64,000 nt of DNA from Branchiostoma floridae. Taxonomy: Eukaryota; Chordata; Leptocardii; Amphioxiformes; Branchiostomatidae. Position numbers and translations under genes: made by a program. Of the stretch, positions 20 through 51,654 are shown piece after piece. The notes under the pieces are model-generated. The model was not told where the DNA came from, did not search any database, and was given only the letters and a program-made list of their open reading frames with translations. The stretch is taken from positions 4,535,638 to 4,599,637 of the forward strand of contig NC_049983.1 of the NCBI RefSeq assembly GCF_000003815.2. The letters run 5' to 3'. Numbering within the stretch: position 1 is the stretch's first letter; every line of letters begins with the position of its first letter.

Positions 20-3000
20 AATTACCTGCCTGCGAATGTTGAGAGGCGGTGTATGATGTTGGAGAGGAAACGGGAGGAGTACTTCAGGTTTGTTAAACAG
101 TACTATCCCAGCAGGACACAGGACAATCATGTGGAAACGTGGAGACAGGTGAGCAAGTCTGTGTGTTCGTATGAGTGTGGGTTTGTGTCTGTGCTTATGT
201 AACATTGTGTAATTTGTACATAGGTCAGGGTTGTAGCCAGCACCTCTCCTTGTCCTTGTGTCCTTTCACGGAATTTTGCAGCAGGGGACGGAAAAAAATT
301 TTAGCCCATTCCGTCCGCAGTGGCAGACAAAAATCGATATGTAAAGATATAATAGAACTGTCTCCCTTGTGTAATTTTTCACCAAAACAGATGCCGTTGA
401 ACAGCTTAGTCTACCAGCAAAATTTACACCTCAAAATGCAGAAAATAGCATTTCAGAGAATCTGGATTTCAAAATTTTCATGGGGAGCATGCCCCGGGAC
501 CCCCCTAGGAACATTGCGCCTTCGACACAAAGTCTTACACCTTCAGCGGTCAATAGGATTCAAACTTGAGGGGGACGGAAAACGATTTCAGGCTGGCTAC
601 AACCCTGACATAGATGTTTGTATTTGCATCATTCTGTGTCTGTTACACTACATAATGATGTGTGGATGTATCTGTGTTTCTATATGTAACTGTGTGTCTG
701 CGTTTGTACATTTTGTATAATTTAAGACGTCAGACGTAGGGACCACTCAGCGCTCTCGTCCAAGTATCAAATATTCCAGGTATTAGAGATGTCGAAGTTC
801 CCAGATGGAATAGCAAAGAAGTGACTGTATATAGCTATAGGGTATGATAAACGTTGGAGCAAACTACAACCCTGATTAGGAGTGGGTTCCGATACCTTTT
901 TTTCTTGTTGGACTGGTCCCAAAAAAACAGACCTGAAACAAGTTCTCCTGGACCAATTGGCAATGAACAGATTATTACAATATTGGCAGGCATTCACACA
1001 TTTTGGTTCTTATTAGTTCAAGAAAATAACAAGAGGGAAATAGAGTAGGGTTTATATTTCTACAGTCAAACTAAGCGTTGTTTACATGAAGATAGGATTG
1101 TAAAATGCCAGTGGGTGTTGGATACTCCACCAAACAGATGCCTTTGTAGCAACAGACCATTATTTTTTTTAGTATCGCCTTCCAGTTTTTACAATTTTTC
1201 TTAGACAGTAAGGTTCAGGTTCAGGTCTGGACCTGTACTGGACCTGGACCTGAATTTTCTGTACCAGTACCCACCCCTAACCATAATAGTACCAAGCTGA
1301 TGTGATCACTGAATGAATGTTTTTGACTGCTTCTTCATGTGTAATGTTCCATGTTTTCTCTGTTTTCCTGGTCCGACACTGACCAGATCCAGGTAGACAT
1401 ACCTAGGATGAATTCCCAGCTTCCATTTTTCCGTCAAAGTTCAATTCAAGAGGTGAGACCTGATAAAAGGGTGCCCATGTGAGGTCCATGGACTGTTGGA
1501 ACTTAGACTAAGTGTGGAAAATGTAGAAGTGACAGTCTGCGCCCTGATGCGAAAACCAAAATTTTGCCTTTGGTTTCATGAGATAGTAAGCGGTCCCCAG
1601 ACTGACGAGAAAGCATGATGCTTTTTCATTAGCTAGTACTAGTAGTGCCATGCATGATTTTGCCAAGCACAACGGGTCACCCCTACTCCCCTCATATGTG
1701 TATTTGTTTATTTTACGACAGGCTTTTAGCCAGACACTTTTCTTAGGATACCAAGAAATTTGACGCACTAGACGCCCTTACACTGGGCAGCAGATCCTTT
1801 GGCAAGCATGAAATTCTGATTGACCAGGGATGCTATCAGGTTATTTGTGGTTACAGTCTTCTACTGTGACCTCTGTAACAGTATTTTTGCCTCTAATAGG
1901 ATACCTTAGAATGCACTATTTTGACTTTGCACTCTGCATCCTGGAAGGTGGATGCCCTTGGACAATATTCACTTAACGCGACTCACCAATAGATTTGGAC
2001 TCCCTTTAATAAAATCCTAGCTAAAAGCCTGTTTTACGAAGTTTGACGTTTAAGGCTTATGTGCCTGAAGCTCCCTCGTTCACAGGGCTGCCGGCTTTGT
2101 GTCACCATCCAAAATGCATTGCGTTACCCCTAACAACATGTCCGAGCTGATGCCACAGAATTCAGCCCACAGATACACAGCATTTGATCAATATGGCCAA
2201 GCAGCGGGGTTGTGTTACCTCGAATTTGTGCCACAGAGACATGCCTAAAACTAGAGCACCAGAAACAAAGGAAATAGTAGTAGATTTTTGACAAAAATTT
2301 TGTCTCTTTAAGTTCAACAGTGCCTGGACCTCACATGGAAGTTAGGCATGAGCTGACTCGAGCTCACAATCATTAATTCTTCAATCCAATGTTGTTTGAT
2401 TGTCTGTATTATTAATTTTTCAGATCCATATAGATATCCCAAGGACAAATCCTCTCATACCTTTATTTCAACAGAAGGTTATCCAAGAGGTAGGAATTAC
2501 ACTAGGCTGCCTCTTTGACTTAAGTCATGCTTCTTTTGCAAAAATATTGATAACATGTAGTTCATCATCTTGAAGTTCTTTAATTTACGTTTTAGTTCAG
2601 TAAATTAGTAAATGTAGAGTTGAAATAACGTAATTGTATGTATGTGTAGAGAAAATGCAATTCCTGTGCCCCTAAAACTGATTGATGTTGGTTAATTGTA
2701 TAGTTTTTACACGTTTAGGAGAAAGGTAGGCTTGTTGGAAGGTTTGAGATGTTTAAGTTAACCTTTCTTCATGTTGATACTAGTACATAGATGACGATCC
2801 CATCCCAAAGAAAAAATTTCGACCACACGGCAAATGGTATCAAGCAGCTGCAAATGAGCAATAATATGCATATGTTTGTTCAACCTTCCAGACCACTAAG
2901 ATTTCATGATAAAGTTCACTGCTGTACATCACTCTATTACAGTATTAGCTATTATGTACCCTATTACTAACAGTTACAAGATAATTCTGTTTCCATTGTC

Positions 3001-6000
3001 TGTTTCAGATCTATGAGAGAGTACTGTTCATCTGGGCTATCAGACATCCAGCTAGTGGCTATGTGCAAGGCATCAACGACCTGGTCACACCCTTCTTTGT
3101 GGTGTTTCTATCCGAATATACAGGTAAAATTCATCCGAATATACAGTCAGGTAAAATTCATGTAATGAGTGAGTGACCATGTCGTATGCTGATGAAGCTT
3201 AGACATCCGGGCAGGGCTCTAGCCAGCGTCCGTTTTTCCTTCAATTGACGGAAATTTGCTGCTTGTGACAGAAATTTTTTTAAACCAATCCGTCAACCTT
3301 GACGGACAAAAATTCTTGGTGGAAGCTACAGGCGGCTTGGGGACGCCGTCCACGGTCGGAAAGCCACACACTGTTTGTCTTGCCATTGTTATGATTGTTG
3401 ACTTAGTGTGTCGGCGCCCTTTTGCATACGATAATCTCATTAAAAACCTGTTTTTCAAGGTCTCTGTTCCGTCTTTCTAACTTGATTTTCGCAGTTTTCG
3501 CGACAATGGAAACCGGCTGACGGAAAAAAATTTCAAGCTTGCTAGAGCCCTGCATCCGGACAACAAGATATACCAAGTGGCAGTTACTGACCAACATGAC
3601 ATGATTTTGGACCATTATTGTCAGTGATTGTATTAATCTATTGAGAACTAAAACAGATGAAATGTTCTGTTAGATCTAGATGTGATAACAGAGGACTTTG
3701 ATGCTTCACAAAACCTGGAGGAGAAGGCCCTGAACAGCATCGAGGCCGACTGCTTCTGGTGCTTGAGTAAACTCCTGGATGGGATTCAGGTCAGTTCACT
3801 CTTCCGATTTAAAACTTTTCGATCAGTACTCTGTCACCAACATCAATATCACGACAGGGCAAAAGGAACTCTAAGTAAAACAGAGGAGGTACTGTTATCA
3901 TTTTATTTTACAACATGTTGCAAAGCAATCAGACATCACCCCTTCACGGTAAGTCAGAAACTTACAGTCACACACACACGCACACACGTACATGTACATT
4001 TGTATCTTTACATACACTCAGCCATATAGTAGTGATACATTTGCACACATTCACAGACAGACGTACTGTACACACATCTCTATGAAACTCACTGGACACA
4101 GCTTACAGGTCTTTTTCTTATTTTTTGCCTTGATGCTTTAAATTGTTATCGTAAGGAAACCATATAATTTTCTTCTGCATCAGTATACAGTCAAATCTGT
4201 CCCAGCATCCACCTCGACAATCTACCCAGTGGCCATAGTGACCGCTTGTTTTCAGCCCAAAACATTTCTGTTCAAAATGGAGTCATTATGTTAGTCCATT
4301 TTACCCCCTTTCCACTAGCTAAGAGCATTGACCTTGCTGAGATCACACTGCAACCTAGTCTCCAAAATACTTTACAAATGTTTCTGTATACCAGGTAAAC
4401 CTGGGACCTGCAACTTTTAAAAGGGATAGATTAACAGCCCTTGTACATGTATTTAATAGTTGAGGACAGCCAATGTCAACCGGATATATCCGGCACACAT
4501 ACATGTATACATGCCCTGTGTGCCATGCCCGGTTATAACTGGGATAGCGTATTCCCCCGAAGTAGCAGCTTTGTGCGCGTGTAGCGCACGAACCCCGGAA
4601 GTTAGGGACTTCAGCCTTGTTCGGGGTTTCTTTTGGGGGGTCAGCGGCCAACCCTGGCACTGATAGCATTTTATAGTGCTGAAGCTCTGGCAGTTTAAGG
4701 GTTAACACTTTGGTAGTGACTGTTCCTTAACTTACATATACATTGTATCAGCTGCATTGTATGCTCAATACCAACTGTGTTGTTGCAGGATAACTACACA
4801 TTTGCCCAGCCTGGTATCCAGCTGAAGGTGAACGCTCTTCGAGAGCTGGTCAAGAGAATAGACGGTGAGATACTTTCTGTTAGGGTACATTAGTGTGTAA
4901 ACTCACATACATATTGACATGTTTTGTCTTACGTAAAGTTTGTAAAATATTGTGCCATCTTTGTGAGGCGTAAACACATACCTCCAAAGTTTAGATGTCT
5001 TCGCAGTACATAATTGTTTACAGAGTGACCTAGCCTTACAAGAACATGACACTATAGCTCTAAGACTTGCATGGATCTTACATGTAATTATGCAAATTAC
5101 GTCCTTATTTCAATTTGCATCTCATTGTGTACATCTCTGCCTGAGGTATTTCTGCATACTGTATATCATGGACATCAGTCATTCCTTTGTTCAGTTACCC
5201 TACTTGAAATAGTTAACCAAAATAGCCCGTAGTTTCAGAGCAAGCTGCTATATACTAAAGGGGTGCAAACTTACATCTGTCCACTTCTTCCCTATGTCAA
5301 CACCTGTCTGTCACCAAACATCAAGACATCAGTATGTAGTGTTAAGTGGCACAGTGAAACCTGTCCGAGCAGCCACCTGGTGCAGGCAACCACCTGCCGT
5401 CAGAGGACACATTGAAACAGTCCCGTCCATTTTTACATAGTTAAGACCCTTTCCCAAGCACCTTTGCCAACCAGCAACCACTTTTTACAGTCCCAAAGGG
5501 GCATTCAACCTGCCCTCACCAACCAAAATTGATTGACTTGCAGCAGCTATATAGCAGCCATTTTATATACAGAATTATGCGGGCACAGTTACCCTAGTTA
5601 ACTTTAAGACTTCTTTTCCTTAGGTTTGTTATTTGTTACGTCTTGTTAATGTTAGGTAGTATCACATGTATTTACATAAGCCAGGATTACCATACATGCA
5701 TCAATCATCCGACCATCGCTCATCCAACCATCAACCAACTTGTTGTCAGCAACCATCTGCCCTCAGCAACCATTATTGCTCCGTCCCTTGAGTGGTTCGT
5801 TGCTTGACTGTATTACTGACATTGTCATTGAAGAAGATTCACTCTTTACTTCTGGATACTTTAAAAATTTTAATAGACGTTTCGAAAGGAGTCCACCTTT
5901 CTTCATCAGTGAAATGAATATGAAGTTGTACAATTTCTCGGAACAAGGAATAATTCTTATGTAAGAATTATTCCTTGAATTATTCCTTACATAAGAATTA

Positions 6001-9000
6001 TTCCTTGAATTATTCCTTACATAAGAATTATTCCTTGAATTATTCCTTACATAAGACTTATTCCTTGTTCCAAGAAATTGTACAGCTTCATTTTCATTTC
6101 ACTGATGAAGAAAGGTGGACTCCTTTCGAAACGTCTATTAAAATTTTTTTAAAGTATCCAGAAGTAAAGAGTGAATCTAATTCGATTTTAATGTTTCCTG
6201 GATGAGTAACCTTCACAGGCGTACTGACATTGTCCTGCTGTGTCTCCCCAGCTCCCCTCCATGCCCATCTAGAAGCACACATGGTGGAGTATCTACAGTT
6301 CGCCTTCCGCTGGATGAACAACCTCCTGATGAGAGAGTTGCCGCTGAGATGCACAATCCGTCTATGGGACACATACCTGGTACGGTCTCACTAGGAAACT
6401 GTTACAAGTAGGGGTGGGTACTGGTACAGCGTACTGGTACAAAACCATTTTTCCTTATTGGACCAGTCCACAAAAAAACATTCTGAAAAAAATTCGGTAG
6501 AACGGATGTTAACTTGGACCTATTAGAAAATAAACAGATTATATAATCAGGAATTCACACGTTTTTGGTTTACCCGCAAATTTTCGTCGAAAATAACAAG
6601 AGCAAAGCATAGTTCATTTCTACAAGGTTTTACAGGCAATCATACAGAGGCAGTTAGTCTTGCAGGCAGCGTTCCCGCCAGGCATACGTCTTTACGTCTT
6701 TGGACGCATCTTTTTCTGGAAAGACGCACTCGGCTCAGCTGAATGCGTCCATAAAAAATTCTGAAAGAAAGGCTGACCTGTACCACCAGTGTACAAAATG
6801 TATCTGGAATCTTTTTAAACAAGAAATCTTTTTAAAAAAGCTGTGCCTTGCCGCGTGGTAGGAATATCGTCAGGAAAAGGTAGGTCGGCACTTCAAGCCC
6901 GGCCAGGCAAAATGCTGTGCCTTGGCGTGCAGTAAGGATAATTTGCTTGTCTGCTAAATACGTATTATTAAAATTTTGACACTAGAAACCACGAAAATGA
7001 GAAAATCTTACGATTATATTTGAAAGGCAACACTCTGAAAATACAAATGGCATTCTGTGCCCATCATCAACCCAAAATACGATCTTTTTCACGTGTTTAC
7101 GGTATAGGCCGCATGTAGCCAGTCACAAGTATGCAAATGAGCTAACTATATTTAGTACCATGCAAACACCGCATGTGACCATGTTGGAACACGTTTTCAG
7201 CTGTGTTTGCCGACGAATTCCTGCCGTTAGGGAGAATTTGCGGCCTCAAAACTGATATCACAAGTGAAGCGAAGTTATAGTTGTTGTTTTACTTTCATTA
7301 TTTTGAAAGAACTTTGTAGCGTCATAGCGAGATCAACCGATATGTTTGGATGACATAGCGGCGCGGAAATATATGCTTCGACGGCGTGAATTTTGAGCAA
7401 AAATACCGCAGAATTATGGTTAGAAAACCCAAGGAGCTTTTATCCTTGGAAAACCCCACATTTTATTATTTCAGGGGTCCCTGGTCCAATTTAAAAGAAA
7501 TAATAAGTGTACCGTCCAAAATAAGAACGTAGCGGGTGGATTCTGCGGCTGAAAAAAATAAACGTAACTGTTACCTAAACATGCACTCTTGAAAATGCAG
7601 ACCAAAAAGTCCCAAAGGTGGGTTTTCATGGTTCTGGTCGCATGACGAAAATATTCTTATATCAAATGGATGTTATAAAAAGGTAAAAGGACAATTGAAA
7701 AAAAAACAACTTTCACTAGGCGGGTTCGAACCGGGGTCGGCAGTGTGGCGACTAATCACGCTAACCACTACGCCATGCTAACATTCACAGTACCAACTCG
7801 TATTAACAGGTATCCAAATCTAAGGCATAACTTGAATACGTCCGTTCATTCCAAGATTCAAAGATTCTAATGTCTAATCCTCCGAAAAATGTCTAAACAA
7901 CTGTTACTTATGTGAAAAGTTTGTAATGAGACGAGAGCCTGGCAAAATAATGTCGGGAAAGGCATGTTACAAGCTCTGATTGGCTGGCTGGAATCTCGGT
8001 GTGTCAATAGCCTGTTTAGGCTATAGGCACACTCAGTGTGTCAATAGCCACAGCGATATAACAAAATGATCCTAAATATTATCTATTGCGACTTCTCGTG
8101 TGACGTTTTGAGCTGGCGCTCTCCTAAACTCACGTTAGCGTTTTGCTGCGGTCTCGGAAGGCCTCTCCAACGTTTTGATGACGTCATGGCTACTTATATA
8201 TTCACATACAATTTATTAGCCTGATTTGGAAATTGTTTCATCTTTATGAATAGCTAATGCAATTCTTGTTGCGAGATAATGCACTTGATTTTATGTCACT
8301 CCAAATGAATTTGGAATTTTACCATACAAACGCTTCATTTATTCAATGTAACCAAATATTAAATGCTTTTAGAACCGACCGCAAACAGAAACAAATACGT
8401 AAAATGGACGGTTTAAAATTCAACAGGGATGTACCATTGTCTGCCTGAGCCGTCAAACTTGTCCATGAGAAAGGCGATTTGGAAGGGCCTTTGGAAGGGG
8501 CTTTGGAAGGGCTGGGTTAAAAGGTCCGTCCATTGATCCATGGAAAAAAGCTGGCGTAAAGCCTTGCCTGGCGGCAAGGCAAAAATCTGTCTTTATAAGA
8601 AGGAATCCTACCTTTACAATTTATACTTCAAATTCTTCACTTTCCGGTCATCCCAGTAGTCTGAGCATGGGGCGGAGGGCGGCACGTTTTACAACTAGCG
8701 AATCCATGTGCAACACACCCTGCCACGCGCCAGTCTGAGCCGTCCGTTGCGCAATGTAATTTTTTGTAGTCCGTGAAATACATCTGACAGTCAGCATTCT
8801 TTAACACTCGAAGAAATCTTATGCAGATTTTATATTCTGATATTAACATAATACTAACTTGTCCTCATTCTCACGTATTTGTTAAAGATTTGTGGGCAAT
8901 ACAAGTATTGAACGAACAAACTGTTCTGCGCGAGTGCTGCACATCTCAACAAAAGTTCTCACGCTGTGGGCAGATGATTGGCAGTCGGTATTTTTGACAA

Positions 9001-12000
9001 CAGGCCGCCGGCGCCATGCAGTCCAGATTGGCCACCAGGTCCAAATCCAATCATCTTAATAACCAATCAGCATTCGATAAATGTAATGTTACACTCTGTC
9101 ATTGGTCACCGGGAAAAAAAGTTGCCGACTATTAGCGCACGTGATGTTGGTAGCCGCCCGTGTCGTCTGGCAACTTGTGTTTCTTCCCTAGCTGCTAACA
9201 ATTTACTATTAAAGTTTCCCCATTTATCCAAGTTAAAAAACGTGCGCGGTAAATAAGTGAAGAATTCAAAACTATACACTTTATTTATTATTTACAAAAT
9301 TCCTTTTGTTTCAAAAAGACAAAATTTGCGGCAGAAAAGGGGCCGCAATATTGTTGTCAGGCGTCGATCGAGTCGGTTGTGCACTAGCATTGGCCTCCGT
9401 GGCACATGGCGCGGCACGCCCCCCTCCCCAGATGGATCGTCGATCGCAGCGCCCAGCACGCTGGGACGTCTTTCTGGCTACTCCTTCAAGGCTACACCGG
9501 CACTGATCACTGCCAAAGAGGCAGCAGATCGTCCTCCTTCGAGTAATGTATAACGTCCTTGGTCTATTTAAAAAGAAATCCAACCAAAGATTTCACTCCG
9601 AAAACGGGGTTACCTGAGGTCGCAGGAAACAAACGCACGCTCGTAGAAAATGACGGCGCGGCCTTGTAAAACCCCACCGATTCGAAAAATTTGAGTAAAA
9701 TCATCGGGCAAAATAGAAAAAAACACAAAGTGTGATGGCGCCGTTATTTTATCGTCTCGGAAAACTACTGTATTTGATGCGGGAGGGCGCAACATCGATC
9801 CCAGAAGGTAGACATTTTTTTATTCAATGACGGAAAAAAATTGGCAGAGGGTGGTCGTCGATAACTGAAAATGGGAGTAAAAGAGGCAACCGACGTCCAA
9901 TTTCAAGTGCATGATTATCCTCTCAAATTGCAGGAAATTGTGTTCTAGGGGGTTTGAAAATCAATTTTTCCCGGTGGAGCATGCCCCCGGACCCCCCTAG
10001 AATGCGAGCGCGTGCGGCGCTCGTCTCGCGCCTCCGGCGCTCATTACGCCCTCCCAACTATTTGGACGCATACTTTCAAGAACCTGGCGGGAACGCTGCT
10101 TGCAGGATTTTAGAATGCCAGTGCAGTGGGAGTCAAATAGTCCACGAAACATACTTCTTTGAAGCAAAATAGACCACTGTTTTGAGTATCATCCATTTAC
10201 ATGTTTTCTCATACTGAATCAGGTTCAGGTTCGGACTGGGATCTGATCCTCTGGACCTGAACCAGACCTGGACCTGAGTTTTCTGTACCGGTACCAACCC
10301 CTAGTTACTAGCAACAAAAAGGAATGGGAAGGGGATAGTTTTACAAAGAACAAGAAAGAACATTAGATTAATCAAGTCTCTAGGACATAAACCTCCATGA
10401 AGTAATCAATATGGTGTTTCGTTTCCTTTTGTTTTTGTTGAAACTTTACTACAATATGGTGTTTGTTGTGTGAGCTATGGTACTGTAAATGTATTTTAGT
10501 TCGTGGGGATTCAATTTCGTGGTGGTTTTAAGTTCGCGGTAGCACCATGCACTGAAGTCTCTCACTGCTATGGAAAATTGTTAACGGTGGTTTTAAGTTC
10601 GCAGTGAAGCGGCCAAAGCGAACCACCATGAAAGTTTCTGCATGTACAGTATTTTGTACCCCATTTACCAGAAATAACATGCCTGCCCTAGTACTTTGAG
10701 ACATTTCATATGCTAATCTAAGGCCTTTGGAAGAAATGCTGTGTTTCTAGTTTGCTGACTTACCCTAGCAAAAATCTGCCGACCTCAAACTTGCTTTTAG
10801 TTGACTACTGGCAAGGGACATTAAATTCAATTGTCAATCTGATATTTGTCTGATGTTATTCAAAACAGACTTCCTTCATTTCATACATAAAACAGATTGG
10901 AGCTTTGAACTGTTGTCATGTTAATGTGAGAATGCATAGTTAACAGTTCCTTGTGCATCAATACTAGTGTTGGACTTGTCCAAGGTATCTGTATGATGGC
11001 AAAAATACCAGTGTTTCAGTTTCATATTGCTAAAATATGATACAAGATAAGGAACTTATTAGAATAAGAGAGGACATAAAAAGAGATGATTCCACCTACC
11101 AACTCTAAGTTAGGTATTTTATTTCACAAGGCCTGATCTGTATAGATGTGAATGTTTGTAGGGAAATTATATGTTAAAAAGATTTCAGAACAAGTGACCT
11201 GTGTTACAGGCTGAGCCACAGGGATTCTCCACGTTCCACCTGTATGTGTGTGCTGCCTTCCTCATCAAGTGGAGAAAAGACCTACTCAGGGAGAGGGACT
11301 TCCAGGTCAGTGCTTACTGTTGTTCAGGGCAAGAAATACCACCTGCATATGCAGGTTAGTGCAGGTAAAATTGGAGCTGTGCAGGTATTTCTGATGTCTA
11401 CCTGCACCTAACCTGCACTGGTCTATGTACTACTCGGTTTTATACATAGCCTGATATCTAGCCGTGTTATAGCTCCCGAGTCTCTTCTGTCCTCATTTGA
11501 GAAGAGAAGAGACTCGGGAGCTATAATATGATCTTTATTTGCATGTTCCTGCCCATGTGGGCTAAATGCAGCAAATCCCATGATGGGATACTAAAGACTA
11601 AGTACTATTACATGTAGTATTACAATTGAATAAACAATACATCTGCAGCTATGCTATAAATACATGAATTGTCCTAAAATGTGGGTTATCAGCTGCATTG
11701 ATTTGTACCACCTACATGACCAAAAAAAATAGCAATGTTTCCTGAACAACTTCCTAAATTCTGAGTGGTGCAGGTAAAATTTGTCTGGTGCAGGTAAAAT
11801 TTGTCTGGTGCAGGTAATTTTCAATGTTACCTGTACCAGTGCAGGTATGCAGAAAAAGTATTTTGAGCCCTGTTGTTGAATGCATGATTTAAGAAAGTTT
11901 GTGGTGATAGCACTATACATGTATAGCCTGATACTGCTGCAGTTATGGAATCATAGTCCAATGTCTACTGTCTGTCCAAAATTCACAATTCTTTGAATCT

Positions 12001-12315
12001 AGTTTGAAAGTTATAAAAATGTTTTCTTTTAATATATAGCTCCTGGAACGCATTGAGTACCCCTTTGCAATGTAAGATAATTAGAAGCAGTTCATTTACA
12101 AGGATTGTTGATAGGAAAAAAGTCTGCTTGGATATTGTAAGTAATGATAATTGTTTTTATCTGCTCTGTTTCAGGGTCTTATGCTACATCTACAAAACCT
12201 TCCCACGATACACTGGGGTGATGACGAGATCGGCCTGATTCTTGCGGAAGCGTACAGACTGAAGTACATGTTCGCTGACGCACCAAACCATCTCAACCAG
12301 AAAAAACCTACATAG
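20..12315 (+). CDS. TBC1D22: TBC1 domain family member 22 (Rab GTPase-activating protein), 3' part
   Basis: Exons by translation and splice sites: 20-148, 1387-1452 or 2424-2489 (alternatives), 3009-3123, 3674-3789, 4789-4864, 6252-6379, 11210-11305, 12175-12315 (stop TAG). All phases agree; with one alternative exon the window encodes 288 residues. The protein follows vertebrate TBC1D22B closely: YLPANVERR, an IxxDxxR arginine finger, then SGYVQGINDLVTPFF with the YxQ glutamine finger, FAFRWMNNLLMRELPLR, and the C-terminal end AEAYRLKYMFADAPNH. TBC proteins speed GTP hydrolysis on Rab GTPases using the Arg and Gln fingers; vertebrate TBC1D22 is linked to the Golgi. The N-terminal region and the start of the TBC domain lie upstream of the window. 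The gene is convergent with the repeat-protein gene at 18.7-33.1 kb. Amphioxus would be expected to have one gene for vertebrate 22A and 22B (inference). Confidence 0.95.
226..607. mobile_element. hAT-like MITE (TIR CAGGGTTGTAGCCAGC)
   Basis: The terminal inverted repeats CAGGGTTGTAGCCAGC and GCTGGCTACAACCCTG bound 382 bp. The flanks ACATAGGT and ACATAGAT make an 8-bp target duplication with one mismatch, and the CAGxG-like ends fit the hAT superfamily. No transposase is present. It belongs to the same family as 3212-3552. Confidence 0.8.
876..1280. mobile_element. MITE with TIR of type AGGGGTGGGTACTGGTAC
   Basis: The left end is AGGAGTGGGTTCCGATACC and the right end is GGTACCAGTACCCACCCCT, with about 400 bp between. 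Internal runs of AGGTTCAGGTCTGGACC character recur in the copies at 6411-10301 and 46148-46480 and, partly, at 63400-63610. It is a dispersed non-autonomous family with at least four copies in this window. Confidence 0.7.
1387..1452 (+). CDS. TBC1D22: TBC1D22 alternative arginine-finger exon, version 1
   Basis: This is a 66-bp, phase 0-0 exon with acceptor CAG at 1384-1386 and donor GTGAGA. It reads IQVDIPRMNSQLPFF and then RQSSIQE. It has the same length, phase and reading as the exon at 2424-2489 and keeps the IxxDxxR arginine-finger motif (I-Q-V-D-I-P-R). It is less like vertebrate TBC1D22B than the second version. Inclusion of both would insert a second finger segment, so mutually exclusive use is the likely arrangement. 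Confidence 0.8.
1453..3008 (+). other. TBC1D22 introns around the alternative exon
   Basis: This covers 1453-2423, the intron between the paired exons, and 2490-3008, the next intron. I see no coding or repeat structure here apart from the exon at 2424-2489. Splicing control sites for the pair would be expected here (inference). Confidence 0.5.
2424..2489 (+). CDS. TBC1D22: TBC1D22 alternative arginine-finger exon, version 2
   Basis: This is a 66-bp, phase 0-0 exon with a good pyrimidine tract and CAG acceptor at 2421-2423 and donor GTAGGA. It reads IHIDIPRTNPLIPLF and then QQKVIQE, almost the same as vertebrate TBC1D22B, and holds the catalytic arginine motif I-H-I-D-I-P-R. It is the canonical version. 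Confidence 0.92.
3212..3552. mobile_element. hAT-like MITE (TIR CAGGGCTCTAGCCAGC)
   Basis: The ends CAGGGCTCTAGCCAGC and GCTTGCTAGAGCCCTG bound 341 bp, flanked by CATCCGGG and CATCCGGA as an 8-bp target duplication. The sub-terminal CCGTCxxxGACGGA motifs are shared with the element at 226-607. It sits in the intron between the TBC1D22 exons 3009-3123 and 3674-3789. Confidence 0.85.
3790..6251 (+). other. TBC1D22 introns, dispersed repeats
   Basis: Apart from the exon at 4789-4864 there is no coding. About 4195-4350 and 5345-5560 resemble old dispersed repeats that begin with ACAGTCAAATCTGTCC-like sequence. A single end of the CCCCTTTCCACTAG type lies near 4306, and the foldback element is at 5834-6178. 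Confidence 0.5.
5834..6178. mobile_element. Foldback element with hammerhead-like cores
   Basis: Two arms of about 130 bp are near-perfect inverted copies (5834-5960 and 6055-6178) around a core of 30-bp direct repeats (TAAGAATTATTCCTTGAATT type, about 5961-6060). Each arm contains CTGATGA, then GAAAGG-TGGACT-CCTTTC, which can pair as a stem-loop, then GAAACGTC: at 6100-6135 on plus and 5876-5911 on minus. CTGATGA...GAAA is the conserved core of hammerhead ribozymes, which are known in Penelope-like and other retroelements. One extra A between core and stem makes activity doubtful. Confidence 0.6.
6667..10098. mobile_element. hAT-like non-autonomous element, 3.4 kb, nested
   Basis: The TIRs CAGCGTTCCCGCCAGG and CCTGGCGGGAACGCTG are flanked on both sides by the perfect 8-bp target duplication CTTGCAGG (6659-6666 and 10099-10106). 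CAGCG ends with an 8-bp duplication are typical of hAT. I see no transposase frame; internal open frames are short and overlap on both strands. The interior includes GC-rich stretches (9340-9600, 9970-10050) and a tRNA-like segment at about 7716-7785. It lies in the TBC1D22 intron 6380-11209. Confidence 0.85.
7716..7785 (-). other. tRNA-like segment (A box and B box)
   Basis: The minus strand reads TGGCGTAGTGGTTAGCG (A-box-like) followed by GGTTCGAACCC (perfect B box) about 35 bp on. Acceptor and anticodon stems do not pair well, so it is more likely a tRNA pseudogene or SINE head carried by the hAT-like element than a working tRNA. Confidence 0.4.
10481..10651. mobile_element. Small MITE (TIR TACTGTAAATG / CATGTACAGTA)
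   Basis: It is 171 bp with short inverted ends and internal repeats of GTGGTTTTAAGTTCGC. TA at both ends fits a Tc1/mariner-type target. It lies in the long TBC1D22 intron. Confidence 0.65.
11325..11872. mobile_element. hAT-like MITE (TIR CAGGGCAAGAAATACC)
   Basis: The ends CAGGGCAAGAAATACC and GTATTTTGAGCCCTG are flanked by TGTTGTT on both sides. Many internal copies of GGTGCAGGTAAAATT are present. A 21-bp perfect hairpin lies at 11468-11488 and 11505-11525. Related ends occur near 26198 and 55078 in the duplicated arms. Confidence 0.7.
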
Positions 12316-14691
12316 CATTTCTACAGACTAACATATTGTGAACTAGATGGTAAGAGCTGTCATGTGCAGCAATCAACGTGTCATGTCCTGTACATGTCTT
12401 AGTCTTCAATTTCTAACATTGTCATAGCTTGGAATTACTTATTAGATGAATGTCCAGAGCTAATTAATTTGGCCCATTGCTCCCTTGCTTACATGTAGCT
12501 TGTTTTACACAAGCTGTTGCTGCTGGGGGCTTTTTGAGCCTTCTCCCCAAGCACTTATTGCCATACACTTAGTCTACTAAATGGAAAGAATTGTTGCCTT
12601 TCTGAGAGTTTATTGCAATGAAAACCTATCCAATAGGAGCTCATTCTCTGTCACCATGGATACAAGCCATTACACCTCAGTCTAACACTATGGTAAGACT
12701 ACACTGACTTGATTTCATAGATGACATCTGTGGGCACATTGATTTTCGTCTTCTTTTTTTTTTTCAATGTGGCCACATGTGACATGTGATTTTGGCAGAT
12801 TTTTTTGCCCTTATGCATTTAGTAAGTTCTGGGTCTCCAGAGGATGTCATTCATAAAACTAAACCAGTGTTGCCAAACAGACAGTTCCCAGTACAGTCTG
12901 ACATAAGTTAGTACATGTTAGCACATTTGCATAAATCAACACATTTCTCATGTTCTCAACTGGTGTTGGTCATCAAGCTTCTAGGACATGACCAATGAAA
13001 GGACTGCTTAGCCAAGAAGGTTTAGTCAGGTTACTTACTTGCTTTTAGTCATAAATTGTGTGTTGACTCACAATCAACCAAAATGTACACCTTTTATGAC
13101 ATGCATAAATTGCACATATTATATAGTTATCCATTGTAGCTGCAATACAAGATGAACCTGAGTCTATACCTGAACCTGAGTTTATGTATCAGCACTAGAA
13201 ATTGGTAGGTGAAGTTTGGGGTGTTTCGCTTGTTTGTCAGTGCTAACGAAACAACAGTACGGCATATGGCTGGGTAGACAAGGTTTGTCAACAACCTTCC
13301 TTTTTTGGTCTCTTTCTGTGGAAAATTTCTTGTTGTACAAGAAATGGCTTAAGGTACTGACCACTAGGAAGAAGAGGACCGTAGCCTGGCTACTTGACAG
13401 TTCATTTGTGTTAAAAAATCAAACAATTTGAAGGTCTAGAGCCTGATGTTGACATGATCATGATCATACAAATGAAAGGGCCCTCATACATTTGTGTAGG
13501 GGGCCTATATACTCATATTTTGCTAATTGAGGTTTATTTAAAATAGTTGTCACCCACAAGCTAATATAACTCCACACACCCCACTATATGGTTTCACAGC
13601 CACAGTTTATTTAGACAGTATATGTGTTGTCGTGTACTCACGAATATTAACGGTAACCATACAAAATGTACATTTTACTTAATAATAGGCCATGATTCAA
13701 TTATATGGAATACATCCTGTGGGAATGCCAAAACCAATGCCACTGTGCATAAAACAAAAATGTTGGTAAAAAAAAGTTGCTTTCATTATGAAATCTTAGT
13801 GGTCAGAAAGGTGAAACAAGTGGTATACCCAACAATAAATCGTTCACTTTTGCTTCTTTCACAATCTTTGGAATTGACTTTGGCAATCTAGTGCATTATT
13901 ATCCATACTCCAATATGTTTTTGAAACTTACAGCATATACATTTACTCATTTGGCATTATACCTTTGTATAATTTACAGTATTGTCAAAAACTTGTTTGG
14001 GGGGATATTGACAAAATGTTGACAGGTGCATGGCTGTTATCCATATAATCAAATCTTGCCTTATTGCATTTAGTATGACTTGAGGTTACAACATACTTGT
14101 ACCTTGTTTCAACATATTTTATACAGTGCATCAATCCCGTCTCTTTTCCACAAGATATGCAGCTTTTCATGTTTGTTAATGACTAGGAACATGCAACACT
14201 TTCTGTATATATGTATTATACAATTGCTCTCGAATAACACATAGTTCACACATCTTTCAAACAAATTTAGAGGCAGTGGTAATGTTGCTTATACGCTGGG
14301 TACAAGACTCAGTGTTGGGGTCCATGTGGGTAGACATATGCATTGTACAGAATAACAATACAGGTTTTGCTATCGCAAACCTGTAATAAGTCTGGCAAGG
14401 ATTCATCATTAAGTTATGAGACCAAGAAATAAGGTGCACAACTCAAAATCATACCTACATGTATAAAGTATGAAATAAGTATCTTAGCAGTTTCCACCAA
14501 ATTTCCAGTCATTAATTGTGGTCCTTTCTGGTCCACGTCCCTTTGAAAATCAGTTAAGAACGAGGGGTGATCAATAAGTCCTCAGCCTCACCCAGAAATA
14601 ATAAGCACAACTCAGATTTCGAAGCATAGATGTCAAGTACAAAGTCTTTTCTGAATGTGTACCAAAGTTCATATTATTGTGATCGTTACTT
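12316..14691 (+). other. TBC1D22 3' UTR and downstream flank
   Basis: This AT-rich stretch has only short, unsupported frames. An AATAAA at 13834-13839 on plus could be the poly(A) signal. I see no other gene here. Confidence 0.4.
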
Positions 14692-17203: not shown

Positions 17204-18694
17204 TGCACCGGTTGAAATGGTGATGTTGCAAAATGGTACGTGTCCCTTTGTTTGAATCATTTTATGTTTGTTACAATTTTAAATAAGCTATACCAATGTG
17301 CCGCAAATCAGTAAGACCGGTGATAGAAGCACAAACGTGCCGCCCTATGATACCGTCAACGTAGTAACTTCCTTAGCATACCTGTCAAATGCTCATATCA
17401 ATTTGACGTACCCTGGATGTGTCACCGATATTACATAACTTAATTTAGCCTAAGATTGAGCGGAAAGGGGGATAATTTGGTGGCAACCTTCCACTTTTGA
17501 TTGTAAGTCTGATTATAACTTTAAGTCCTGTTGCTATCGCAGCTTGCCTTGCAAGGTTAACTTAGTCATGTACTCATTGCATAGTTTAAAGAAATTGCCT
17601 TTACATTACGTACCGGTAAGAAACAGAGGCAAATGATATGATATATTCGTCGCGTTTAGATGTATTTGTAGCACTGACTTGGATACACTGCTGCAACCAA
17701 AGCTTACTAAACGGTTTCAGATGAAAAAAAAACATAACTCCGATGTATGACGTTATTTTCTCATCAAGTATAAATTCTTCATTTTGTGGATCCAAAGTGG
17801 CAAAATCATAATTTGCTGAAACACGTCGGAACAGTGTTGTAAGTACACATTCAACCCACGCTAATCTAGTTAACTTTTTACATAAACGATCTGAAAAGCA
17901 TTTGCTTCGTCTGAAATTCCCTCTATTACATATACACGTAGAACCACTCACAACACTATCAAAGAAACACACCACAGCCCTCTTAGCGCTTCAGAAGTCA
18001 CATATATTATATTGCATTTCATATATTTACAAAGCCACAACAACAGGCAGTGTTATCTGAATTGCAGTACAAAATGTCCCTGGTTAAAATCTTGCGATTC
18101 TGCATTGATATTATATATAAGTTGAGGTTACGTCATAAAATACATCTCTTGTTAAAATTTGTGTTGAAAATATATTTCAGGTGCATTGTATACGTGTCAC
18201 TTTGTACATCATGTTTATACTGATTGCAAATGTATCAAAGATAATTCAAACGTATGTACCGTTTAGTTACAATATAATGTATGTACCATTTTGTAAGACA
18301 AGTATTGCAATCAGTAGCGATATTCTGCGTATTTTTCTTTACATGCATTTTTGTGGTTTTGGAACATACAAAAATCAAATCAGTATCAAATCAACTCATC
18401 TGACAATGCATGATAAAATCATATATAAATAAATGAATAATAAGATAAATCAAATTATTTTCAAGCAGTGCTTACACCTTTTGTGAATAAGGCTTAAGTT
18501 CAATTTTCTGGTATATACGTTTATAACTGTAGCCAAATCGTAGAACTTGACTTCCTTTGTGAGCGCATCAATGATGACACATTCGTACGTATGAGCATGA
18601 AATAACCACCTTGTTGAACATACAGTCTAGCGTCCACTATTGTGACACAAAATCCCCACAAAGTCTTCCGCAATCCTTTTCTGCAACAGTTCTG
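17204..18694 (-). other. 3' flank of repeat-protein gene copy A; outer edge of the left arm
   Basis: No gene is seen. From about 17.9 kb rightwards the minus strand aligns with 60192-60870 on plus (for example TTTTAACCAGGGACAT against TTTTAACCAGAGACAT), so this is where the inverted arm begins. It is probably the 3' UTR of copy A. Confidence 0.55.
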
Positions 18695-21600
18695 TCAGTA
18701 GAATCCAGTGGTCAGTCTGTAGCCCTTCTTAATCCTGGAAGTCAGCAGTGCCAGAGGGAAAGAAGCAGGGTTGTGAGGAACAGTGACGTCATCTCCCTCA
18801 GCTGCAGGTGACTTGTAGCTCTTTCCCTGACAAGGCGCAGCGGCCATGTTGCTGATTAATGCCTTGCCAAACATGCCATTGAGTTCACATCTCTGCAGTA
18901 CATTATTCTGTATGGAGTGGAAGTGTTCTTTTGCAGCTGATTCTTCAAGCGCAATTTCCAGTCCGCGTGGCCCATCTCTCACAACATCTGGTGCAGTCCA
19001 GACCTGCTGTGGTACTTTCCTCTCGATCAGTACTTCCAGTCCACGAGGCTCGTCAAGTGCAGTAAAGTCAAGGTGGCTCATATTCTGCTGAAACTCTCGG
19101 TAGTTGTGAGGCTTCTCCTGTTCCCTACATGGTGCTACTGTAGGAGCAGGCTTCATGTCTCCACCACCGACGTCGACAGTTGACAGGGACTCCAAAGACG
19201 CCCTTAGCCTGATGGAGGGACTCTGCCTCAAGACCATTGCATCATGATTCAGCTTGGAATGTGCTCCACGTGGTGAGCTGGCCTGTTCTGGAGTTGATGC
19301 TGACTGCGAAGTCTCATGGTAGAAATCTCCTAGTCCACGCTCCTTTACTTCCGTTGGAGAAGCTGATCTGCGTTGAGACAGAAGGAACTGTTCTATGAAG
19401 GAGTTAAGCGGTATTGGGTGCATCAGGAAGTGTGCCGGGTCAACAGAGGAGTGTTGATGATCTCCGTGCTCCACAGGACTCCGTAGAAAGCTCTGTACAC
19501 CGCAAAAGCGTGGTACCTCTATATCAGGAAGAAGTGGTGGTTCTTTTATGTTTGAATCCCCTGACGCCTGGCTGGGATTGTAGAAACCCCGTGAGATGCA
19601 GAGGGTAGGCCATTCTTCCAATGTTTCCTTGAGTTGGTCAGCATCTTGCGGAATGCAACCGTTAAAGACAAGCGTAGGCGCAACAGCCACAGGTCCATTC
19701 TTTGCTCCATTGTGCTGGTCAGCGTCTAGCAGAGGGCAGCCATTACGGTTAAGCTTGGGCAGAGCGGCTGCAGACTTCTTTTTCTTTGCTCCGTTGTGCT
19801 GGTCATCGTCTAGCAAAGGGCAACCATTGAGCAGCAGTGTGGGCAGAGCGGCTGCAGGTTCCTCCTTCGCTTGGTTGTGCTGGTCATCGTCTAGCAGCAG
19901 AGGGCAACCATTGAGCAGCAGTGTGGGCAGAGCGGGTGCAGGTTCCTCCTTCGCTTGGTTGTCCTGGTCATCGTCTAGCAGCAGAGGGCAACCATTGAGC
20001 AGCAGTGTGGGGAGAGCGGCTGCATGTTCCTCCTTCGCTTGGTTGTGCTGGTCATCGTCTAGCAGCAGAGGGCAACCATTTAGCAGCGGCGTGGGCAGAG
20101 CGGCTGCAGGTTCCTTCTTCTCTGCTTGGTTGTGCTGGTCATCGTCTAGCAACAGAGGACAACCATTGAGCAGCAGTGTGGGTAGAGCGGATGCAGGTTC
20201 CTTCTTCTCTGCTTGGTTGTGCTGGTCATCGTCTAGCAGAGGGCAACCATTGAGCAGCAGCGTGGGCAGAGCGGCTGCAGGTTCCTTCTTTTCTTGGTTG
20301 TGCTGGTCATCATCTAGCAGAGGGCAACCATTGAGCAGCAGCGTGGGTAGAGTGGCTTCAGGTTCCTTCTTTTCCTGGTTGTGCTGGTCATCATCTAGCA
20401 GAGGGCAACCATTGACGAGCAGCGTGGGTAGAGTGGCTGCAGGTTCCTTCTTTTCCTGGTTGTGCTGGTCATCATCTAGCAGAGGGCAACCATTGAGCAG
20501 CAGCGTGGGTAGAGTGGCTGCAGGTTCCTTCTTTTCTTGGTTGTGCTGGTCATCATCTAGCAGAGAGCAACCATTGAGCAGCAGCGTGGGTAGAGTGGCT
20601 GCAGGTGCCTTCTTTTCTTGGTTGTGCTGGTCATCATCTAGCTGAGGGCAATCATTGACGAGCAGCGTGGGTAGAGTTGCTGCAGGTTCCTTCTTTTCTT
20701 GGTTGTGCTGGTCATCATCTAGCTGAGGGCAACCATTGAGCAGCAGCGTGGGCAGAGCGGCTGCAGGTTCCTTCTTTTCTTGGTTGTGCTGGTCATCATC
20801 TAGCAGAGGGCAACCATTGAGCAGCAGCGTGGGTAGAGTGGCTGCAGGTTCCTTCTTTTCTTGGTTGTGCTGGTCATCATCTAGCTGAGGGCAACCATTG
20901 AGCAGCAGCGTGGGTAGAGTGGCTTCAGGTTCCTTCTTTTCCTGGTTGTGCTGGTCATCATCTAGCAGAGGGCAACCATTGACGAGCAGCGTGGGTAGAG
21001 TGGCTGCAGGTTCCTTCTCTTCTTGGTTGTGCTGGTCAGCGTCTAGCAGAGGGCAACCATTGACGAGCAGCGTGGACACATTTCTATTTGTTACCTGCTC
21101 GACAGCTGTCTCGTTTGCACACTGTGGTGAAGGGTTGTATTCTGATGACTTCACTTTGATGTCTTTGAGTACTTTTCCCTAAAAAAGCGATCACAGCGCG
21201 ATCGTCAGCACCATAGATAGGGAAAGTTTAAAAAGTATTTATTTGTTAACGTTATTAACACTTCTTTGTTAATATCATTTGCACTCCCTATTGATACTTG
21301 TGCTATTGTTATTGTAATGTTTTGTTAAGAATTGATTCAAAATAGATAAGAGTTAAATTCAGGACAATTTAAACATTGAGGGTCTTAAAACCCATTGTAC
21401 AATAAACTTGTTTTAGTGTAGAGTGCATAAAATTGTAACTTACATTTACCTGCGGCCCAATCTGCTGAGTTAGGTCCTGTAATGATGTAAAACAGAAAGA
21501 TGTATTTATTGTACAGAACCGTGCATCTTAGCAAGTATGGTAGTAGTGTCATATTGAATTTATGCACAGAATCCGGTATAATAGCATAAAACAGACAATT

Positions 21601-24600
21601 TTAACTTTTTTTCTTTTCATTCTCAATATAACAGAGTAAGATATTTCATTGCATAACATGACTTATATTTTCAACAGGAAAATCCCAAACAAAATCTGTA
21701 CCCACCTGTTTCAGCTGTTTTACGAACCCCTTGTTTACCTCCATCTACGAATAGATGACAAAATACTTGTAGTTTGTATTGTATTAATCTGAATTAATAA
21801 AGAGTGTCTGATTGTGTTTACTTTTTCTACTGCATATGGAATATATTCCAAAACCAGGATTATAAACCAACATTAGCATCTACTAGTATTTTCATTACTA
21901 TTGTTCCTAATTTGGTGTGCCGACTCTGCAACCAGGGGCGTAAATGCTGGGAGGTTACAGGTGGCATCACAAGGATGTGCAATGGTAGCGAGGACAGCAG
22001 GCCCTAGTGAACTTTATTTTTTTTCTTGTTTTTTTCTTTCTTTCTTTTTGCTTTTGGACAGACGATGACAATGCGGCACTGCAAGATTTTTTAAACTTAT
22101 ATCAACAGTGCCACATACAGTCTTTTACCTCCCCGACCAAAGTCAGGTACCCATTTTTACACCTGGGTGAAGTGAGGAAGGTTGTGTAAAGTGCCTCCCA
22201 GGGGCACAACGTCAAGCACGTGTCCTGATTGACCCAACATCAATTATGCAGGACAAACAGCCGCTCTGACCACGCTGCTGCTCAATGGTTGCCCTCTGCT
22301 GCTAGACGATGACCAGGACAACCAAGCAGGGCAATGACCCTAATTGACGCAGGCGCAGAAGGCCCAAAACGAGTCCATACAGTATTTTAGCCTATTTTCG
22401 ACTTTTAGCAGGAAAATGTAAGTACATTTCATATTGGTGAGACAGTGTAGGTTGCAGATGTTCAGATTCGGCCAAAAAAACTAGGTTTTAGTCCATCTTT
22501 TCGGCCTGTGCTGACCCCTAATTTGAAGTGCTGAGTCCCAAAAATGACGTCATGAAAAAGCAAGATGGCGGCAGGTTTGACCGGTGGAATAGTTGCACTG
22601 GTCAGAAAGTTTAAATATTAGACTTTTGGACACTTGAGGTAGCGGGCTGCTGTGTGGGGTGAGTTCTTATGACCTGGAATGTTCACGGATGAGATTATGA
22701 CACCCTGAACTTGCTAACTTTTACATTATCGCCTATGTAGATTTGTATTAGTGGTAACTGCTCAGCAAAGAAGAAGGAACCTGCAGCCGTTCCGCCCACA
22801 CTGCTGCTCAATGGTTGCCCTCTGCTGCTAGACGATGACCAGGACAACCAAGCAAAGAAGAAGGAACCTGCAGCCGCTCTACCCACACTGCTGCTCAATG
22901 GTTGCCCTCTGCTGCTAGACGATGACCAGCCCAACCAAGCAAAGAAGAAGGAACCTGCAGCCGCTCCGCCCACACTGCTGCTCAATGGTTGCCCTCTGCT
23001 GCTAGACGGTGACCAGGACAACCAAGCAAAGAAGAAGGAACCTGCAGCCGCTCTACCCACACTGCTGCTCAATGGTTGCCCTCTGCTGCTAGAAGATGAC
23101 CAGGACAACCAAGCAAAGAAGAACTCAAGGAACCTGCAGCCGCTCTACCCACACTGCTGCTCAATGGTTGCCCTCTGCTGCTAGAAGATGACCAGGACAA
23201 CCAAGCAAAGAAGAACTCAAGGAACCTGCAGCCGCTCCGCCCACACTGCTGCTCAATGGTTGCCCTCTACTGCTAGACGATGACCAGCACAACCAAGCAA
23301 AGAAGAACTCAAGGAACCTGCAGCCGCTCCGCCCACACTGTTGCTCAATGGTTGCCCTCTACTGCTAGACGATGACCAGGACAACCAAGCAAAGAAGAAG
23401 GAACCTGCAGCCGCTCCGCCCACGTCCATTTGAACTCAGGACCTATATTCCGAGCCGAACGCTCTACCATTTACGACGAACTTAAGTTGCGACTATTGAA
23501 CTGTAAGGATGCGAACCGCTCACAACAGAAAGCACCCCTACTCTCTTAATAATTTGGATTCTCAAACATGCTTGATTCTATTATGATGTTCCTGTCTATA
23601 TTAGCCTGTAACGTTGTGACTTTTTGCTCAAACATGGGACCGCCATTGAACATTTTATGATTTTATCTGAGGAACTAGAAAGGCCGACATTTGCTTGAGA
23701 GCAAATACAGCATATTTCAGCCATCTCCCTCATGAAACAATAGGCCTTGAGGTCGTTGACCCCTTTGGCCATTGGAAAATGACCAAAAAAATCCCAAATA
23801 TATCATTTTAAAGTGTTCCGTGCCAAAAATTATACATGGGTTATTTGAATAGATATCTAGAGCACCCCTTTACCAATTTACGGGTCATTAGGTTGTAAAT
23901 CGAGGGAACAGGAGCCAAAAATGTCCAAATTTTGTCAAAAAATGGCCATAAAATCGCAAAATTAAGCATTTTGTTGTACCGTATGGGAAAACTTTTATTG
24001 AATTTATGTGCACATAATTGAAGGGCACTTTTATACCAAATTTCAGATCATTTGGTTGTAAAACGAGGCTACAGGAGCCAAAAATGTCCTTTTTTGGTAA
24101 AAAAAATGGCCAAAAATCGCAAAATTAAGTATTTTGTTGTACTGTATGGGAAAACTTTTATTGAATTTATGTGCATATAATTGAAGGGCACTTTTATACC
24201 AAATTTCAGATTATTTGGTTGTAAAACGAGGCTACAGGAGCCAAAAATGTCCTTTTTTTGTAAAAAAAAATGGCCCAAAATCGCAATATTAAGCATTTTG
24301 TTGTACCGTATGCCAAAACTGTTATTGAATTTATGTGCACATAATTGAAGGGCACTTTTATACCAAATTTCACATCATTTGGTTGTAAAACGAGGCTACA
24401 GGAGCCAAAAATGTCCTTTTTTGGTCAAAAAATGGCCAAAATTAAGCATTTTATTGTACCGTATGCCAAAACTGTTATTGAATCTAGGTGAGCATATGAT
24501 CAAGGCACCTCTGTACCAAATTTCATGTCATTCGGCTGTAATACCAGGGTACAGGAGCCCGAAATATACATAAAAAATGACAAAAACCTCAATAAAATCA

Positions 24601-33104: not shown

Positions 33105-35670
33105 TGTTTGACTTCTCAATATAGATGACTGTAACGCCTACAAATGTCATCAAAAATTAGTAAAAGCTACCTTTAGTATGTAAAATTAGTTTATGAATCT
33201 CTCAATGTTTTAGAAAGAACTACATGGTTATATTTCATAGCTGTCAAACTTTCTGGTTTTGTCCTTATATGTACGTTATAACCTTGGTGACTTTGACCTT
33301 GTTCTACCCAGCCTTGACCTTGTTCTATCCGGCCTTCGTAAAACCGACACTTTTTTTCGGTGCAAATCATGCCCAAACTCCCGTTTTTTTGTTGCCCTAG
33401 TGCCTTCTCTCTGTAAACAAAAGTCACAAGTATCATATGACTTTGATTTTTCATTTATCGTCGGAAATGTGCCCGATTTGTAGCCAACAAACTGGAAGAG
33501 AAAAAAATCCCACCTGCTTCTATCGCTGGCAAGTTCATCTGTGTAAATAGAACACCGCGTCCATGGCAACAGGAGTAAACATGGTGAATCGAACACGTGG
33601 GAGGAATGATCTTGAAAATCTTGCGTTGAACCTGCTAAAATAATGTTTTAAAGTATCGATTCTTGACGCTTTGATGATTTTTTAAGTCTTCATATAGGAT
33701 GTTATTATATCTACTTATAAAACCTATTACAGTTGATGATTAGGGTATAACTTTGGAGAGTATTGATGTATTTTAATGTCCTTATCTCAGGGACATTCCT
33801 GTATGACGTAAGGCGTTCATGAGCACAACTGTAGCAACCAGGTTGCGGACGGAACTAACTAGTGAAGCGGATCGTGAAGCCTTTCTTCGCCCCTAGTCAT
33901 ACTCTAACAAATGTCTGTGTTCTAATTAGATGTTGTACGGACTAGTTTACTGTCATAACAGACGCTATCATTTCCCTGTAGTGATATTATCATCTTGGTA
34001 CTATTTTTAGTCGCGGATGAATGTATCAAACCTGTACGATATTCCAATCTCGAGCCCAGGGTTATTTGGCGGTAGACCCTGGGTACGACATTTTTGACAT
34101 TCAGGTTTCATGATAAATGCCACAGTATTTATACCACCTACAATTTTCTTACGTACGCAAAGAATGTTATGTTTTCGGCTGCGTGTGTTTGTTAGTTTTT
34201 CTGTCTGTGTAGTTTAAGTTGAGAAGTCGTGGGTGGTCATTGTGATATTTGGTATTTTGTCATGTGCTTTGCAAAATTTAAGAGATATGGACCACTAACA
34301 ACTGTGTATGGTACTGATTTGCATAATCATTGAAGAAAAAACTTACATTAAAATTTTGATACCTATAGAAAGACAGTTGTAACCGCGATCATGAAACCAC
34401 CGTAGAGATTTGAAAGTTTTACACTAGTTAACCACGATCGATTCGTCTGCTTGAAAATTTCCGCAGTCTCAGACTTTGAAGCACTTCCGGAGCATTTTAT
34501 GAGCTGGTTATTCTGTATCCACATTCACATTAATTGTATCCTTATCTACTGCAAAACCTCCATTCGGCGCAATACAGTAGCTTCGTGGGCACGTGGCGCG
34601 TCTGCAGCTAGTTTTACAACATGTATTACATTAAACAATCTGTCACACCTTAGCTTTAAGAGTTCTTTTAAGCTAGTGAGGATGCCTTTACAGTAGTTGG
34701 TGGCAACGAGCTCTACTCTACAAGTACGACAGTTCAACAGGGCAAAGCAGATTTTTGACTACATTAATACGTATACACTATACAGGGTTGAATGAATGGC
34801 TGAAAGAACAATTTGAACTGAGATCTTAGCTTGTGTACCGAGTGGAGTACCGAGGATAGCAATATGGGTGTAGAATAGGAAAGAGAATAAATAATTTCTT
34901 CCCTAGTCAATCATCTACACGTCAGGTGTTGATAATTTTTTAGTATAACATATCTTACAAATGTAAATTGTGTATTTTTTCTTTACCATGGCCATGTTTG
35001 TTTTGATCAGGTTTTCTTTCTACAATGAGCTATATGGCTGATGACGTAATCCCAAAACAAAGCCGAAATTTCCCTACCAACGTTAGGCTAGGCAGTACGT
35101 TAGTACTAAAGAAAATTTCCGCATTTTTATCTTGACACTCATGCGCATACGCTATAGTTAGCTCTGACCACAAAAATATGGCATCATTGTAAACAGTATA
35201 AAATAAGTTATCCAATGATGGTCAGAGGCAATACTATGCATTTAATAAAGTTTTTATTGATATTAAGCTTTTTACGATAAAAACATTTTATGTGCTAAGG
35301 CGTAGGAAAAATGTGTTTCCAGGAACGGGGCTGAAATAATAGGGTCGGTAGGTGGGGATTTTCAAATCTTATTTTCAAGATCTTGGACGATTCAATCCAA
35401 CAGATACAGTTAAACTGTTGTATTAGATATTATATTGTACTTATGCAGATAATGCATCGTACATGCACAAGTGTATCAACAAAGTGGACGAAAAAGTAGT
35501 TACATGTTAACTACACATCCTTACATCAGTTCCAAGCATTAAACTGTTAACAGAGTGGGAAAAACAGAAATCTGTTCTGATTTTCACTACCTCATCGTGC
35601 ATGATGCGTACGAGATGGACAACTACGTCACAACATTCACGGAATAGTACACGTGGTAATGTTTACACAA
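33105..35670. other. 5' flank of copy A and 3' flank of the FG-GAP gene
   Basis: 33105-34120 mirrors 46560-47562 and should hold the copy A promoter. The frame at 33276-33596 is conserved in both arms but has no ATG start or splice signal, so I do not call it a gene. On minus, AATAAA (TTTATT at 35253-35258 on plus), about 410 bp after the FG-GAP stop, is a likely poly(A) signal. I see nothing else. Confidence 0.5.

Positions 35671-51598: not shown

Positions 51599-51654
<56 letters not shown>

Follow-up and report, generated by a model that had tools for sequence, protein, structure and literature searches.

On the + strand of the stretch of DNA analysed here (64 000 nucleotides, ‘the window’) we pieced together the 3′ portion of a TBC1D22 gene down to its stop codon (Table 1); the start of the gene lies outside the window. 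The 5′ edge of the first exon was set at position 20 by an AG and an in-frame stop codon located just upstream. Two of the exons, designated A and B, encode versions of the same segment, the one that carries the catalytic arginine. When the protein spliced with B was compared with solved chains, the best match was human TBC1D22B (6d0s_A, 496.9 bits), followed by TBC1D22A (2qfz_A, 434.9 bits) and yeast Gyp1 (283.5 bits); the next chain was shark TBC1D15 with 64.9 bits. With A in place of B the order among solved chains was unchanged (TBC1D22B 477.6, TBC1D22A 429.6 and Gyp1 274.7 bits, next chain 66.1). The Pfam TBC profile (PF00566, cut-off 25.2) gave 149.9 bits for the protein with B, 147.0 with A, 144.7 with both exons and 126.9 with neither.

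Table 1. Coordinates in the window of the TBC1D22 exons and of the intronic elements that separate A from B
Feature	Position	Strand	Evidence or remark
Constitutive exon 5′ of the pair (NYLPANVERR...ETWRQ)	20..148	+	ends in phase 0; aligns to residues 67-108 of 6d0s_A (human TBC1D22B)
Putative alternative exon A, IQVDIPRMNSQLPFFRQSSIQE, probable derived copy of the arginine-finger exon	1387..1452	+	exon-pair comparison, simulations
Inverted repeat, left arm, 24 nt, 92% complementary to right arm	1475..1498	+	
Presumed hAT-like non-autonomous DNA transposon, A-B intron	1719..2031	+	inverted ends CAGGCTTTTAG...; flanked by a perfect 8-bp target duplication, TTTTACGA
Inverted repeat, right arm	2315..2338	+	
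Putative alternative exon B, IHIDIPRTNPLIPLFQQKVIQE, arginine-finger exon of ancestral type	2424..2489	+	comparison with TBC1D22B and Gyp1
Constitutive exon with glutamine finger GYVQG	3009..3123	+	
Constitutive TBC exon	3674..3789	+	
Constitutive TBC exon	4789..4864	+	
Constitutive TBC exon	6252..6379	+	
Constitutive TBC exon	11210..11305	+	
Final coding exon, NHLNQKKPT followed by stop	12175..12315	+	

The two catalytic fingers of the TBC domain have been assigned to R343 (IxxDxxR, motif A) and Q378 (YxQ) in Gyp1 (PMC3676764) and to R274 and Q309 in human TBC1D22B (PMC12631847); TBC1D23 is described as a protein without GAP activity, which was explained by loss of both finger residues (PMC7274447). 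Both fingers are present in the amphioxus protein, with IxxDIPR in either of the two exons and YVQ in exon 3009-3123. Arginine and glutamine lie 35 residues apart whichever of A and B is used, as they do in human TBC1D22B and Gyp1; in human TBC1D22A the spacing is 34 residues. Thus, we found a PF00566 score above the cut-off, both finger motifs and a TBC1D22 protein as the best solved-chain match, the features by which we recognize a RabGAP of the TBC1D22/Gyp1 type, and we characterized the gene product, from its sequence, as such a protein with putative GAP activity.

Other parts of the window contained a large inverted duplication (18421-34121 and 46564-60466, main pieces 83-93% identical) that does not reach TBC1D22. 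Open reading frames of the duplicated gene (18695-21178 on the - strand, 58011-60191 on the + strand) have many repeats of ∼27 residues with LLLNGCPLLDDDQHNQ; for the frame at 18695-21178 the only Pfam match was below threshold. An open frame of 270 codons at 62216-63028 (- strand) matched the haloacid-dehalogenase-like hydrolase profile PF00702 with 81.1 bits; its product presumably resembles HDHD3. Two runs of N, at 41801-41900 and 63216-63315, have exactly 100 bases each and are probably scaffold gaps.

A preliminary description of this DNA had claimed two 66-nt exons of phase 0-0, each encoding 22 residues with the IxxDxxR motif, both without stops and with good splice sites. Our analysis bore out these claims: each exon is an open 66-nt stretch in phase 0-0 with AG before it and GT after it, and both translations contain IxxDIPR. 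The donors scored 9.85 (A) and 7.41 (B) in comparison with 5.88-11.23 for six other donors of the gene, on a mammalian matrix. Pyrimidines occupied 9 of 16 acceptor positions in A, where the tract is interrupted, and 11 of 16 in B; the range for six other acceptors of the gene was 7-13. The A donor ranks with the stronger donors of the gene; the A acceptor tract is middling.

The translations of A and B are identical at 12/22 residues, DIPR included, and the exons at 41/66 bases. With exon B as reference we scored 40,738 open 66-mers from both strands of the window by BLOSUM62; exon A was the best by far with a score of 64, the runner-up having 27, and in the subset flanked by AG and GT (n = 180) the runner-up to A scored only 4. 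No third copy of the exon was detected in 149-13000 on the + strand, even with stops allowed (next score 16). Prediction of mutually exclusive exons has relied on homology, comparable length, and preservation of both the splice sites and the reading frame (PMC3228551). Similar length, the same phase, compatible splice sites and homologous translations were all observed here, and the earlier suggestion of paired homologous exons over the arginine-finger segment of a TBC1D22 Rab-GAP is supported by sequence. The flanks of A and B failed to align (2 to 10 matches per 20-base block in six blocks), which indicates that the duplication is old. The Nei-Gojobori pS between A and B was 0.85, with dS undefined.

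One could suspect that the second copy is an assembly artefact or a misplaced allele, given the two 100-N gaps and the inverted duplication elsewhere in the window. However, positions 1-41800 contain no N, and a difference at 25/66 bases between exons with unalignable flanks goes far beyond allelic difference; such an origin is hardly credible.

To human TBC1D22B exon B is identical at 19/22 residues, in agreement with the earlier remark that the second exon is close to the vertebrate TBC1D22B sequence, and to Gyp1 at 15/22; the values for exon A were 11/22 and 9/22. Judged by these identities, B is the ancestral form and A the derived copy. The two differ at exon positions 2, 3, 8, 10, 11, 12, 14, 16, 18 and 19, the arginine being at position 7. 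Thus, the preliminary description was right that the first exon differs just after the arginine, where eight of the differences are situated, but it missed two more before the arginine. Its statement that the exons swap the catalytic arginine finger was too strong: since the arginine and the DIPR core are identical in A and B, the finger itself is unswapped, while its surroundings and the following segment change by ten residues. We also considered exon A as a counterpart of vertebrate TBC1D22A, with which it shares a Met after the arginine, and rejected this idea; at the ten A/B differences TBC1D22A matches A at one position, B at four and neither at five (by one gap placement).

Does exon A encode protein, or does it only look intact? 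The numbers of identities between A and B at codon positions 1, 2 and 3 were 18/22, 17/22 and 6/22, respectively (Fisher p 5.5e-5). Neutral evolution was simulated over 22 codons with exon B as the ancestor, A drifting beside a constrained B, for nine ages; we counted outcomes in which positions 1 and 2 held 35 or more of 44 matches and position 3 no more than 6 of 22. Under a neutral A the joint probability did not exceed 0.0007 over the nine ages with equal branch lengths, or 0.0005 if A also had to stay open. A second run gave, at the best age, 0.00044-0.00050 across kappa values of 1, 2 and 4; under the lenient setting with the synonymous rate of B doubled the joint probability was 0.0016-0.0024. 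Neutral drift would erode positions 1 and 2 of A along with position 3 and seldom fits the data, which argues that A was kept as coding sequence. Most likely, exon A was preserved as protein-coding sequence during the greater part of the time since the old duplication. Such a test reports past constraint on A and not its present use; a recent loss of use is compatible with it.

These results bear directly on the possibility that exon A, intact-looking but skipped, is a duplicate in decay or one that never came into use. Such a history would agree with the greater distance of A than of B from the ancestral sequence (9 versus 15 of 22 identities to Gyp1) and with the interrupted acceptor tract of A. 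Still, 6/22 identities put position 3 close to saturation, and positions 1 and 2 have 35/44, a pattern that neutral decay produced in <0.3% of simulations under every setting tried. Exon A has no stop, and its motif and both of its splice sites are intact. A recent loss of use is the one form of this history that would still fit. We regard decay as unlikely.

The reading that we favor, with a probability of about 0.77, is that A and B arose by an old tandem duplication of the single motif A exon and that both were retained in the coding sequence for alternative, most probably mutually exclusive, use. Either exon would join position 148 to the glutamine-finger exon at 3009 in frame, giving a complete TBC domain. 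Ten residues around and beyond the arginine would distinguish the two products; the chemistry would be the same and the surface near the finger altered. We infer that A is expressed and that the exons are used one at a time, the latter from their equal length, phase and finger spacing. Exclusive use is best supported, since inclusion of a single exon keeps the spacing of 35, while skipping loses the arginine and inclusion of both amounts to a 22-residue insertion.

In many cases adjacent exons that resemble each other are reported to lack exclusive splicing (PMC5740500), and the reading frame would not enforce exclusion at this locus: 66 is a multiple of three, so that both double inclusion and skipping are in frame. 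The Pfam profile, too, scarcely penalizes double inclusion, with nearly equal scores for both exons and for A alone. Among frame, the exon distance of 971 bp, splice-site type and RNA pairing we found no intrinsic device that would enforce exclusion. Steric exclusion was rejected as the intron that separates A and B has 971 bp, and U12/U2 incompatibility as the sites of A and B are all GT-AG and neither donor resembles the U12 consensus. A docking/selector arrangement is a known RNA device for such exons (PMC6071210); in the single sequence available, scanned in 40-nt windows over at most 500 nt per selector intron, the best joint pairing was no better than in shuffled sequences (35/60 and 34/60 shuffles were as good in the two arrangements), and this candidate was rejected as well. 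Trans-acting factors, together with selection against proteins with no exon or two exons of the pair, would be the likeliest enforcer.

The intron between A and B harbors a 24-nt inverted repeat; its duplex has a computed energy of -38.4 kcal/mol and is formed in the predicted fold of 1380-2500. The repeat could represent transposon ends or an RNA stem that shortens the distance between A and B. The element at 1719-2031 we call hAT-like by features typical of that family. Other introns of the gene contain further elements. A palindromic element at 5819-6194, in the intron before exon 6252-6379, is 87% self-complementary over 381 aligned positions and has central 30-bp tandem repeats. Another element, at 221-612, has 21-nt inverted ends (221-241 and 592-612, 95%); GGACGGAAAAAAAT and CTAGCC motifs at ∼3210-3560 resemble it by eye, which suggests a repeated family. 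Searches with Rfam at gathering scores gave no matches and a tRNA scan found no genes. We saw no similar DNA in phages for 1387-2500, and no relatives among viral and prokaryote contigs, where 4, 25, 23 and 46 stretches matched by pattern and none was confirmed by tblastn, an unsurprising outcome for such collections.

If the inverted repeat acts as a stem, ∼107 nt between the A donor and the B acceptor would be left outside the loop, a geometry that would suit a cassette exon A, added beside B in some mRNAs to give a TBC domain with a second motif A segment. Joint inclusion is in frame, the arginine of B keeps its spacing of 35 residues, and the Pfam score of such a protein is 144.7 bits. Against this, the 22 residues would be inserted inside the domain, at a place where no insertion is present in any of the four TBC1D22/Gyp1 chains matched in the PDB, and a plain insertion requires neither equal length nor a retained motif in A. 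Use of A as a cassette is thus, in our estimation, quite unlikely.

Regulated skipping of both exons, with the pair serving as an activity switch, deserves consideration because critical catalytic residues are reported to be missing from about one third of TBC proteins, for which a role as effectors is considered possible (PMC12631847). Skipping is in frame and removes the motif A segment; the resulting TBC protein without the arginine could bind Rabs without inactivating them. However, it would make the domain 22 residues shorter (Pfam 126.9 bits), and the retention of two intact exons would stay unexplained; we find a switch of this kind very improbable.

Turning back to the reading of A and B as exons used one at a time, we ask what an exchange of the segment could change. 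Rab choice by TBC domains is poorly defined. We compared human TBC1D22A and TBC1D22B exon by exon and found identities of 32/42, 13/22 (the A/B segment), 35/38, 19/37, 23/25, 36/43, 27/32 and 30/40; the A/B segment is the least alike apart from the exon-4 linker. In a sliding comparison 28 of 265 windows of 22 residues were less alike than the A/B segment; among the windows listed, the twelve least alike all share residues with the exon-4 linker. RAB1B loaded with GTP-gamma-S was reported to bind TBC1D22B, its binding to TBC1D22A being negligible (PMC12631847). TBC1D22A, a canonical two-finger TBC protein, is reported to inhibit receptor transport from ER to Golgi, probably not via Rab33 (PMC6639060). 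As the segment is divergent between the two human proteins and their RAB1B binding differs, an altered Rab preference of the A product relative to the B product is plausible; we infer that the binding differences may be tied to this 22-residue segment. The exchange would probably give the A and B products unequal Rab affinity, preference or rate; by this analogy, a difference in preference or rate is plausible. Residues altered by mutually exclusive exons are reported to cluster at or near functional sites, with the fold likely kept (PMC7954323). The dimer interface of TBC1D17 adjoins the two motifs (PMC13090580), thus an effect of the A/B exchange on self-association is, by analogy, another possibility.

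If the favored reading is true, the locus offers a natural swap of 22 residues around the catalytic arginine in an otherwise identical protein, a clean test of whether these residues govern Rab choice or rate. One could speculate further that in an invertebrate TBC1D22 an either/or exon switches the surroundings of the arginine, and hence the Rab preference, of a Golgi RabGAP, and that in vertebrates the same 22 residues underwent an independent diversification after duplication of the gene (TBC1D22A versus TBC1D22B), which would make the segment a natural specificity module. We put this wider proposal forward as possible but doubtful; should it hold, one lineage would have diversified by duplicating an exon the same segment of an enzyme that another lineage diversified by duplicating the gene.

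To our knowledge, no twin exon is known in the TBC1D22A, TBC1D22B or Gyp1 genes. In the open full-text literature, as judged by title or the start of the abstract, searches on TBC1D22 and on amphioxus gave no account of these twin arginine-finger exons; public annotation may list both isoforms. The main text of a human survey of mutually exclusive exons has no occurrence of ‘TBC1D’ or ‘GTPase’ (PMC5740500). In that human set 60% of clusters are given as holding exons with length not divisible by three, unlike A and B, which are divisible. Homologous mutually exclusive exon pairs are a well-known kind, for which we found no description in TBC1D22. The solved relatives TBC1D22B, TBC1D22A and Gyp1 (PDB 6d0s, 2qfz, 1fkm and 2g77) share with the amphioxus protein a homologous TBC domain, both fingers and the same spacing, with one residue less in TBC1D22A. 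With the class of homologous mutually exclusive exons the A/B pair shares tandem homology, equal length and phase, compatible splice sites and variation next to a functional site.
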